A stretch of DNA of 64,000 nucleotides from Haloarcula limicola. GTDB lineage: Archaea; Halobacteriota; Halobacteria; Halobacteriales; Haloarculaceae. The notes under the pieces are model-generated. The model was not told where the DNA came from. It was given only the letters and a program-made list of their open reading frames with translations, and made no database searches. The stretch spans positions 930,001-994,000 of the forward strand of contig NZ_WRXM01000001.1 of the NCBI RefSeq assembly GCF_010119205.1. Reading direction: 5' to 3'. The translations under genes were made by a program, and so were the position numbers. Positions 20,095-43,296 of the stretch are shown here, piece by piece; position 1 is the first letter of the stretch, and each line of letters opens with the position of its first letter.

Positions 20095-21240
20095 TCAGAG
20101 CCCGAGTTCGCGCCCGAGGACCAGCCGCTGGATCTCGCTGGTCCCCTCGCCGATCTCCATCAGTTTCGCGTCGCGGTAGAACCGCTGGGGCGCGAAGTCG
20201 GTGGTGTAACCGTAGCCGCCGAGCACCTGCACGGCGTCTTCGGCGACCTCCCGGCAGATCTCGCTAGCGTCGAGCTTCGCCAGCGCGGCCAGGCGGGTGA
20301 GGTCGTCGGCGTCGCCCGCGTCGTAGGCCGCCGCGGCCTTGTGGGTGAGCAGTCGGGCGCGCTCTATCTTGCGGTCCATCTCGACGATCTTATCCCGCAC
20401 CGCGTCGAACTTCGAGATAGGTTGGTCGAACTGCTCGCGCTCGGTGGCGTAGGATTTCGCGGCCTCGTAGGCCCCCTGCGCCAGGCCGACCGAGAGCGCG
20501 GCGATGGAGATTCGCCCGCCGTTCAGCGTCCGCTTGGTCTGGTCCCAGCCGTCGCCCTCCTCGCCGAGCAAGCGGTCTTCGGGAATCCGGCAGTCGTCGA
20601 ACTGGAGTTCGCAGGTCGGCGAGGCGTTCAGTCCCATCTTCTCCCACACCGTTGTCACCTCCCAGCCGTCGTCCTCGGGCGAGACGACGAAGGTCGAAAT
20701 GCCGTCGTAGCCCGCGTCCGGTTCCGTGACGGCCTTCACCAGTATCGACCCGGCGACGTTCGCGTTCGTGATGAACTGCTTCGTGCCGTTGATGACGTAC
20801 TCGTCGCCGTCTCGCGCCGCGGTGGTGTCCATGTCGCTGGCGTCGCTGCCGCTGCCGGGCTCGGTCAGCGCCCACGATCCGAGGTGGTCGCCCCGCGCGA
20901 GCGGTTCGAGCCACCGCTCTTTCTGCTCGTCGGTGCCGAACGACTCGATGGGCTTCGAACCGAGCGAGACGTGTGCCGCGTAGGAGAGACCGATAGAGCC
21001 GGAGACGCGGCCCAGCTCCTCACAGACCAGCGCGTACATCAACTGGTCGCCGCCCAGCCCGCCCCACTCCTCGCCGATGGGGACGCCCATCACGTCCAGT
21101 TTCCCGAGTTCGTCGAACACCTCGGCGGGGAACCGGTGTTCGTCCTCGATGTCCTGGGCGATCGGGGCGATCTCGTTCTCGCAGAAGTCCCGCACCGAGT
21201 CGCGCATCAGCCGGTGCTCGTCCGGGAGGTCGAACTCCAT
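20095..21240 (-). CDS. Acyl-CoA dehydrogenase
   Basis: 381 residues, standard size. The flavin-contacting segments ALTEPGSGSDASDM and FITNANVAG, the substrate-site SVGLAQGAYEAA helix, and the C-terminal LGGYGYTTDFAPQRFYRDAK and EGTSEIQRLVLGRELG are all present; the catalytic Glu lies in EGTSE. It performs the FAD-dependent first step of acyl-CoA oxidation. The start MEFDLPDEHRL was chosen because a TATA-like GTATTTG lies 27 bp upstream; an ATG 24 bases earlier is possible. A paralogue lies at 32286, which carries an extra 16-residue insert absent here. Confidence 0.92.
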   Translation of the reverse strand: MEFDLPDEHRLMRDSVRDFCENEIAPIAQDIEDEHRFPAEVFDELGKLDVMGVPIGEEWGGLGGDQLMYALVCEELGRVSGSIGLSYAAHVSLGSKPIESFGTDEQKERWLEPLARGDHLGSWALTEPGSGSDASDMDTTAARDGDEYVINGTKQFITNANVAGSILVKAVTEPDAGYDGISTFVVSPEDDGWEVTTVWEKMGLNASPTCELQFDDCRIPEDRLLGEEGDGWDQTKRTLNGGRISIAALSVGLAQGAYEAAKSYATEREQFDQPISKFDAVRDKIVEMDRKIERARLLTHKAAAAYDAGDADDLTRLAALAKLDASEICREVAEDAVQVLGGYGYTTDFAPQRFYRDAKLMEIGEGTSEIQRLVLGRELGL

Positions 21241-21318
21241 AGCACCGGCTACGGTCTCTGTCATCAAATACCATGCGGAGCACAAGCGCTATCCGCCGCC
21301 CATCCCTCGTCTCACCCA

Positions 21319-32285: not shown

Positions 32286-33476
32286 ATGGATTTCAGTCCC
32301 TCTGCGGAGCAGCGCCAGATACGGGAGATGGTCGCGGAGTTCGTAGACGAGGAGGTCGTCCCCCGGGCGGCCGACATCGACGCGGACGACGAGTTTCCGC
32401 GCGACCTCGTCGAACAGATGGCTGAGTTGGGGCTGATGGGGATGCCGATTCCCGAGGAGTACGACGGTGCCGGTCTCGATTATCACAGCTACGCGATGGC
32501 GCTCGAAGAGATCTCGCGCGGCAGCGGCGGTCTCGGCACCATCGTCGCCGCCCACATCTCGCTCGCGTGCAACATGGTCTACGAGTTCGGCGACGAGGCC
32601 CAGAGGGAGACCTACCTCGCGCCGATGGCCGCGGGCGAGGACATCGGCGCGTTCGCCCTCTCGGAGGCCGGAGCCGGCAGCGACGTGCCGGCGATGGAGA
32701 CCACGGCGGAGCGTAGCGAGGCGCAAAGCGCCTCGGAACGGAGCGGCGTAGCCGCGGAGAGAGAGGGCGACGGCTACGTCGTGAACGGCGGCAAACTCTG
32801 GATCTCGAACGGCTCGGTCGCCGACACGGTCGTCCTCTTCGCCAAGACGGACCCCGAGGCGGGCAACAAAGGAATCTCCTCCTTCGTCGTCCGCCCGGAG
32901 GAGGACGACGGGTTCGTCGTCGAGGGGACCGAACACAAACTCGGCGACAAGGGTTGTCCGACCGCCGAGTTGCGCTTCGACGACATGTATCTCCCCGAAG
33001 ACCGCCGCCTCGGCGAGGAGGGCCGCGGGTTCGTCCACGCGCTGAAGACGCTCAACGGCGGGCGCATCACCATCGCCGCCCGCGGCGTCGGCATCGCACA
33101 GGCCGCCCTCGACGAGTCGCTTCGGTACGCACAGGACCGCGAGCAGTTCGACCAGCCCATCAGCGAGTTCCAGGCCATCCAGCACAAACTCGCCGACATG
33201 GACACCAAGACGGAGGCCGCCCGAATGTTGATGCACAGGGCCGCCGACCTGAAAGAGCGCGGCGAACCGTTCGTCAAGGAGGCCGCGCAGGCCAAGCTCT
33301 ACGCCAGCGAAGTCTCCCGCGAGGTGGCGAACGAGGGCATCCAGATCCACGGCGGCTACGGCTACACCAAGGACTTCCCCGTCGAGCGGTTCTACCGCGA
33401 CGCCAAGCTCAACGAGATCTACGAGGGGACCAGCGAAGTGCTGCGCAACACCATCGCGGACCAGTTGCTGGACTGA
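32286..33476 (+). CDS. Acyl-CoA dehydrogenase carrying a 16-residue palindrome-encoded insert
   Basis: 396 residues. Standard motifs: LSEAGAGSDVPAMETT, LWISNGSVADT, GIAQAALDESLRYA, IHGGYGYTKDFPVERFYRDAK and the catalytic Glu in YEGTSEVLRNT. Compared with the paralogue at 20095, and with the ETTAER-to-DGDxYV join common in the family, residues 143-158 (SEAQSASERSGVAAER region) are extra and encoded by a 48-bp palindromic insert kept in frame. It catalyses FAD-dependent dehydrogenation of acyl-CoA. The extra loop is surface-like and polar, so activity may be kept. Confidence 0.9.
   Translation: MDFSPSAEQRQIREMVAEFVDEEVVPRAADIDADDEFPRDLVEQMAELGLMGMPIPEEYDGAGLDYHSYAMALEEISRGSGGLGTIVAAHISLACNMVYEFGDEAQRETYLAPMAAGEDIGAFALSEAGAGSDVPAMETTAERSEAQSASERSGVAAEREGDGYVVNGGKLWISNGSVADTVVLFAKTDPEAGNKGISSFVVRPEEDDGFVVEGTEHKLGDKGCPTAELRFDDMYLPEDRRLGEEGRGFVHALKTLNGGRITIAARGVGIAQAALDESLRYAQDREQFDQPISEFQAIQHKLADMDTKTEAARMLMHRAADLKERGEPFVKEAAQAKLYASEVSREVANEGIQIHGGYGYTKDFPVERFYRDAKLNEIYEGTSEVLRNTIADQLLD
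32712..32759. repeat. 48-bp in-frame palindromic insert within the acyl-CoA dehydrogenase gene
   Basis: The insert contains a perfect hairpin GAGGCGC-AAA-GCGCCTC at 32718-32734 and is bounded by the 6-bp direct repeat GCGGAG (32706-32711 and 32754-32759). Its length is divisible by three, so the frame is retained. The style (arms with AAA loop, CGGAACGGAG next to it) recalls intergenic repeats near 45275 in this window. Confidence 0.6.
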
Positions 33477-43024: not shown

Positions 43025-43056
43025 GCGACCCACCTTTTTCTTCGTCGCCTTTCCTC

Positions 43057-43075
43057 GCGCGCTCGCAGAGCGCGC
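43057..43075. repeat. Perfect hairpin between the NAC promoter and a gene remnant
   Basis: GCGCGCTC, loop GCA, GAGCGCGC: 8-bp arms. Part of a short non-coding stretch dense in palindromes. Confidence 0.45.
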
Positions 43076-43112
43076 TGTGGGAAGGCTCCTCGAAAAACGT
43101 GGGCGAAAAAGG

Positions 43113-43141
43113 CCGAACTCGCGGCGTCGCCGCGAGTTCGG
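43113..43141. repeat. 29-bp near-perfect palindrome
   Basis: CCGAACTCGCGGCG, central T, CGCCGCGAGTTCGG: 14-bp exact arms, the longest in the window. It ends one base before a coding-like remnant. Such elements resemble scattered haloarchaeal extragenic palindromes; function unknown. Confidence 0.55.
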
Positions 43142-43296
43142 TACGATACGAACTACCGCACCGCAACGAACGCATCGTCACCCACGACGGCTTCCAGCAG
43201 CACAGCCAGCTCCTCGGCAAAGGCATCCCCGACCACGGCGTCGAGAAACTGATGCGCCGCGAGCAGGTGTTCGCGGACGCCTACCGGTATCACTCT
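43142..43296 (+). pseudogene. Coding-like remnant of an unknown gene
   Basis: A frame without a proper start reads [18 protein letters not shown], then LLGKGIPDHGVEKLMRREQV and ADAYRYHSS, with third codon positions almost all G or C as in real genes here. It is cut on the left by the 29-bp palindrome and on the right runs into the end of the lipoprotein gene. I cannot name the family. It looks like a truncated gene left beside repeat DNA. Confidence 0.4.

Follow-up and report, generated by a model that had tools for sequence, protein, structure and literature searches.

A palindromic insert in a haloarchaeal acyl-CoA dehydrogenase gene and the apparently undescribed hairpin family to which it belongs

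An acyl-CoA dehydrogenase gene of Haloarcula limicola carries a 48-bp insert that belongs to an apparently undescribed hairpin family, found with the same in-frame placement in dozens of conserved genes and in most haloarchaea. The insert lies in a 64,000-nucleotide stretch of DNA (the window), in which a sequence-only reading had suggested that a mobile or duplicating palindromic repeat, similar to those of Rickettsia, is tolerated in a loop of the enzyme. The present analysis supports that suggestion, with the reservation that transposition is deduced from the contrast of filled with empty sites and has not been demonstrated. In the literature searched, SEARSAS, the peptide encoded by the family core, appears in no paper and haloarchaeal elements of this kind are undescribed; most subscription papers lay outside the search, and an earlier description cannot be excluded.

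Results

The relevant features of the window are:

20095 to 21285, minus strand: paralogous acyl-CoA dehydrogenase gene without an insert (TTAARDGDEYV)
32286 to 33476, plus strand: insert-bearing acyl-CoA dehydrogenase gene, the host; open reading frame of 396 aa with matches to Pfam PF02771, PF02770 and PF00441
32706 to 32711, plus strand: left GCGGAG direct repeat, host-gene sequence; several orthologues have GCGGAG or GCCGAG at the empty site
32712 to 32759, plus strand: inserted element, 48 bp or 16 codons, encoding RSEAQSASERSGVAAE; absent in 29 orthologues, with a core found class-wide
32717 to 32735, plus strand: hairpin 1, CGAGGCGC-AAA-GCGCCTCG, the conserved family core
32743 to 32755, plus strand: hairpin 2, GCGGC-GTA-GCCGC, perfect, in the variable half of the element
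32754 to 32759, plus strand: right GCGGAG direct repeat; the related dehydrogenase copies L164, L185 and L229 end GCGGAGAAG or GCGGAGAAA

The codons of the element are CGT AGC GAG GCG CAA AGC GCC TCG GAA CGG AGC GGC GTA GCC GCG GAG and, as originally described, the segment is bounded by GCGGAG and adds its 16 residues with the frame intact. The perfect GAGGCGC-AAA-GCGCCTC hairpin recognised at the outset is present at 32718-32734, and one further C-G pair extends it to 32717-32735; the second perfect hairpin had been overlooked. The window contains this single copy of the element. Perfect hairpins of at least 8 pairs with a 3-nt loop occur 9 times in the window against 4.6 expected, and the window hairpin by itself is not beyond chance. 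The fold of the whole insert beats 200 of 200 shuffles on either strand, and the two strands fold about equally well.

All 29 orthologues compared, from the genus and the order and with identities up to 94%, lack the insert. Their proteins run uninterrupted through METT-AE-xDGDxY, and homologues with a solved structure align with a gap at the insert position. The paralogue at 20095 goes without the extra residues too, as originally stated, and the outcome that would have reduced the insert to ordinary loop variation, the same residues in all close relatives, was not met. The segment 32712-32759 is confirmed as a clean in-frame insertion. The middle domain profile match of the host enzyme spans the insert in a Pfam profile search. 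That the position is a surface loop is inferred from the gap in the solved homologues and from general knowledge of the fold; the AlphaFold model of the host enzyme (mean pLDDT 51) was too poor to use.

In the dehydrogenase tree, the window protein groups with the empty orthologue of another Haloarcula genome (G026, support 95/95), and the filled orthologue of Halobaculum saliterrae falls outside Haloarcula; the AU test gives p 0.049 against a single clade of the two filled genes. Inserts at the equivalent site occur in two further dehydrogenase paralogues, from Halosimplex aquaticum and a Natrialbaceae genome (TTAEK-SEARSASERSGAAAEK and RAEK-SEARSASEQSGEAAEK), and L185 of H. aquaticum, with its insert at this site, is the apparent counterpart of the empty paralogue at 20095-21285. 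The tree and the paralogue inserts thus mean either that the dehydrogenase site was hit several times or that an insert was passed on by local recombination.

A further record of gain and loss comes from argB. Of 30 Haloarcula genomes compared, 5 have the same argB loop filled and the others have it empty, with differences even between close species, and the argB tree requires at least 4 changes on well-supported branches. The second hairpin varies among the filled copies, one of which has a compensated stem. Direct repeats flank the dehydrogenase copies: the window copy has GCGGAG (6 bp), and copies in related dehydrogenases have GAGAAG, whereas none of the argB copies has a target-site duplication similar to GCGGAG or GAGAAG. 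The direct repeat first noted therefore stands for the window copy and not as a general target-site duplication; judged from the flanks of these copies, a constant duplication is absent.

The family core is AGCGAGGCGC-RAA-GCGCCTCG, accompanied by a variable second hairpin. With up to 3 mismatches it was found in 215 of 292 Halobacteria genomes and a reversed control pattern in only 6, so its recurrence exceeds chance. The exact core AGCGAGGCGCNAAGCGCCTCG matched 102 stretches in 84,980 species, each represented by one genome; about 95 are haloarchaeal, seven are bacterial and none is from Rickettsia. The few bacterial matches are taken as chance, and it should be kept in mind that an exact-match query skews counts toward well-kept copies. 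Core copies per genome are few, from 0 to 26. The genome from which the window comes, surveyed by sampled stretches and pattern searches, has three further in-frame copies, recognised by translation in genes for a P-type ATPase, a CobN-type chelatase and a Dna2-like helicase, as well as several intergenic hairpin arrays. In two other sampled genomes of the order such hairpins are few and their orientation is unclear. Over-represented 10-mers were uninformative, the coding signal being dominant. A peptide search found the element peptide in no phage and in plasmids only as two weak matches, both P-type ATPases. A scan of IMG/VR returned two related viral contigs (L268 5731-5751 and L269 4053-4073) in which a longer palindrome, GGGTAGCGAGGCGCTAAGCGCCTCGTACCC, contains the core outside any long frame; this non-coding palindrome was judged to be a different hairpin or a chance match.

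The other outcome that would have spoken for ordinary loop variation, a unit occurring nowhere else, is thus not met either: the core recurs in most haloarchaeal genomes, mainly within genes and in frame, although what recurs is not a fixed 48-mer. In a typical copy of about 42-60 bp, a well-conserved hairpin of 19 bp is followed, after a short spacer, by another hairpin with variable stems. A second hairpin lies within 45 nt after hairpin 1 in 77 of 95 copies, compared with 30 at a control position, and the core and second hairpin together mostly span 40-52 nt. The loop of hairpin 1 is most often GAA across the family. Among 150 listed copies, its stem is unchanged in 96, purely compensated in 27 (for example GAGTCGC-GAA-GCGACTC) and has broken pairs in 27, the search having counted each compensated pair as two mismatches; the broken pairs include 3 G-U and 9 A-C. 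The element begins TAGCGAGG... and ends ...CCGCGAGA, and these ends are not mutual inverted repeats. When the codon preceding AGC encodes Asp, it is GAT in 20 of 32 cases, against a background of 11% (p = 4e-12), and from this excess the element appears to carry its own leading T. Some copies (L063, L181 and L101) are nested within other hairpins. Around several in-frame copies (L153, L179, L190, L216 and L224) there is also an outer stem, such as GACGGC...GCCGTC or GGCGGT...ACCGCC, which with hairpins 1 and 2 would form a three-way junction.

Most exact haloarchaeal core matches lie within coding genes. Both flanks are best read in frame +0 and in sense in 58 of 76 haloarchaeal copies and in 16 more of a second set; in these same two sets, with positive coding scores required, no copy lies between two flanks that code in a different frame or on the opposite strand. 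The frame used, AGC GAG GCG CRA AGC GCC TCG, encodes SEARSAS or SEAQSAS within the wider pattern SEARSAS...SSGxxPRD. Of the six frames of the consensus element it alone is acidic (net charge -4); it is also polar, giving about DSEARSASDQSSGDEPRD, and the unused frames are neutral or basic, one with a stop. The choice of frame is thus explicable by selection at the protein level. The copies treated as coding belong to 61 homology clusters of host genes, a few of which may be non-coding. By profile search the hosts are mostly conserved enzymes, including LysRS, LeuRS, IleRS, PurK, Elp3, acetate-CoA ligase and CarB, and further ornithine cyclodeaminase, PepF, ArgB, TrpA, MoaC, FBPase and CobN. 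The same insertion site is occupied in different genera in dehydrogenases, trpA, carB, argB, lysS and a helicase, and the trpA copies at their shared site differ in their second hairpins. The shared lysS, trpA and carB sites (loci L138, L233, L177, L218, L237, L146, L157 and L227) are either hot spots or passed-on alleles.

Outside genes, related but longer hairpin arrays stand behind coding sequences, some with the exact core (L063 and L181). Of the non-coding clusters in which the upstream gene stops ahead of the hairpins or among them, 24 lie on the strand of that gene and 5 are antisense; in at least 6 the stop codon TAG (of TAGCGAGG) immediately precedes the hairpin. Since selection on protein cannot account for an orientation bias outside genes, the bias implies an effect on mRNA or strand-specific spread. 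It is possible that some of these post-gene hairpins are simply terminators or RNA structures of another kind and not members of the family. The array hairpins follow a common grammar, in which a helix whose sequence is free leads to a symmetric GA/GA mismatch, then to two base pairs and lastly to a GNA triloop, as in GGAGACTCC-GA-GC-GGA-GC-GA-GGAGTCTCC. Such structures occur 23 times in 400 kb of the window genome, a sample partly picked around known arrays, and never in fifth-order Markov controls. The Rfam models gave no match in the window, and in six array loci matched only RNase P RNA and a tRNA.

Two other hairpins deserve mention. A terminator-like one at L049 783-810 on the minus strand, CTGGTCGT-GAACGGAGTGA-ACGACCAG followed by CCTTTTT, has the GA-XX-GNA-XX-GA loop of the arrays, so this type of loop has a wider use among haloarchaeal hairpins. 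A separate hairpin-rich repeat at window positions 43029-43142 on the minus strand (CCGAACTCGCGG...CCGCGAGTTCGGCCTTTTT, then a GAGGAA-type hairpin) has no Rfam match and recurs in the window genome at C1:1541.9k (82% over 114 bp), partly at C1:562k and weakly at C2:177.7k.

Discussion

What process brought one sequence into so many unrelated genes? The insert is probably one copy of a haloarchaeal palindromic family that spreads within and between genomes and persists inside protein genes. A DNA copy would be placed at short matching sequences, or would arrive by recombination with an already filled allele. Selection would then remove any copy that causes a frameshift or introduces basic or hydrophobic residues, and the others would be tolerated as flexible loops. 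Palindromy might persist because copying acts on the folded strand, or through mutual correction of the hairpin arms. Empty sites, class-wide recurrence, in-frame sense placement in the only acidic frame, gain and loss, compensated stems, the GAT excess, nesting and the mainly sense orientation of the non-coding copies all speak for spread of such a family. Against it, no transposition event, donor or enzyme has been seen and the moving enzyme is unknown; target-site duplication is inconsistent and core copy numbers per genome are low. Furthermore, the same sites hit in different genera could reflect allele transfer rather than fresh insertion.

Several other explanations compete with spread of a mobile family. 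The elements may be kept at the RNA level, through folding of the sense transcript (stability, termination or processing), and perhaps spread through an RNA copy. The predominantly sense orientation of the non-coding copies (24 against 5), their position directly behind a stop codon in at least 6 cases, and tandem GA mismatches and GNA loops on one strand only all fit this idea, but broken G-U pairs are fewer than A-C pairs (3 and 9, small numbers), the opposite of what selection on a sense RNA predicts, the window copy folds about equally on both strands, and there are no transcript data. I regard this RNA-level explanation as rather doubtful, though not to be set aside lightly. Mobilisation in trans, as a non-autonomous MITE or REP-type element, by a Y1 transposase (IS200/IS605 or RAYT-like) or another hairpin-recognising transposase, is unlikely. 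It would suit the hairpins, the small size, the many copies and the strand-specific fold, and Y1 genes occur in 37 of 59 genomes of the class; yet the window genome has no PF01797 match, that is, no Y1 (IS200/RAYT-type) transposase, element and Y1 numbers are not positively related across the 59 genomes (Spearman -0.19, p 0.15; Y1 only, other transposases left out), and neither a constant target-site duplication nor inverted-repeat ends were found. One genome of the order (G068) has ten mostly decayed Y1 transposase copies and no core element.

It is quite improbable, although it cannot be dismissed, that the coding hairpins enter genes in one orientation because the folded sense strand, as RNA or as single-stranded DNA exposed by transcription, is their template or directs their targeting, through an unknown host or viral enzyme. 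Were this so, the elements would represent a strand-specific mobile system continually adding acidic loops to haloarchaeal core enzymes. If template switching or quasi-palindrome correction had formed immobile palindromes where they now stand, this would explain why the variable stems stay perfectly paired, but it would not yield one sequence, and an identical 19- to 21-bp core with its peptide is found in unrelated genes of different genera; I consider it very improbable. Finally, the site does vary by a few residues among relatives (AEPV or AEPI, for example), as expected if the insert were ordinary length variation of a surface loop. One DNA core in about 60 gene homology clusters and in intergenic arrays leaves that explanation practically untenable, and class-wide recurrence refutes it. 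Spread of a palindromic family remains the preferred explanation.

How does this family compare with known systems? REP and BIME elements lie mainly outside genes and have a Y1 transposase (RAYT) as their partner. They share short hairpins, sometimes in arrays behind genes, whereas the haloarchaeal family is largely intragenic in the core search and the window genome lacks a Y1 gene. MITEs, noted for Halobacterium and Haloquadratum (PMC10969869), are likewise small, multicopy and non-autonomous, but the ends of the present family are not mutual inverted repeats and no constant target-site duplication was found. The insertion peptide of a halophile tRNA synthetase (Evilia and Hou 2006, as cited in PMC3787623) is likewise an extra peptide in a halophile enzyme, but is not known to be palindromic or repeated. 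Polar inserts in haloarchaeal enzymes are not all salt adaptations, which annotators should bear in mind.

The closest likeness in placement is to coding palindromes. Rickettsia palindromic elements (RPE; Ogata et al. 2000, 2002) are palindromic repeats that measure 105-146 bp and carry terminal inverted repeats of about 12 bp; they occur in intergenic DNA as well as in frame within conserved genes, where they encode a conserved peptide (PMC2229807, PMC10969869). The haloarchaeal family shares the in-frame placement in conserved genes, the single conserved frame and the extragenic copies; it differs in its GC-rich copies of about 42-60 bp with two hairpins, against one long stem-loop in an intracellular bacterium. 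Wolbachia palindromic elements (Ogata et al. 2005) and the palindromic coding repeats of Methanocaldococcus jannaschii (Suyama et al. 2005), both known here through citing papers (PMC2996958, PMC2229807), are in frame and palindromic as well, and the latter show that such repeats can exist in archaea. By their titles they concern one genus and one methanogen, whereas the haloarchaeal family spans a class. The family behaves like the coding palindromes of Rickettsia, Wolbachia and Methanocaldococcus; membership among the RPE is not claimed, since its dimensions and anatomy are different and any kinship in sequence would be conjecture.

What the analysis adds to the original reading is that the family reaches across the class, has a two-hairpin anatomy and a fixed sense frame, is accompanied by related intergenic arrays, and has been gained or lost repeatedly at the same sites. 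Earlier coding palindromic elements came from Rickettsia, Wolbachia and one methanogen, and what moves them is not known. A class-wide family with recent filled and empty alleles and genetically tractable members (Haloferax and Haloarcula) makes the movement of such elements testable, and likewise the question of whether inserts in frame are merely tolerated noise or supply proteins with new loops.
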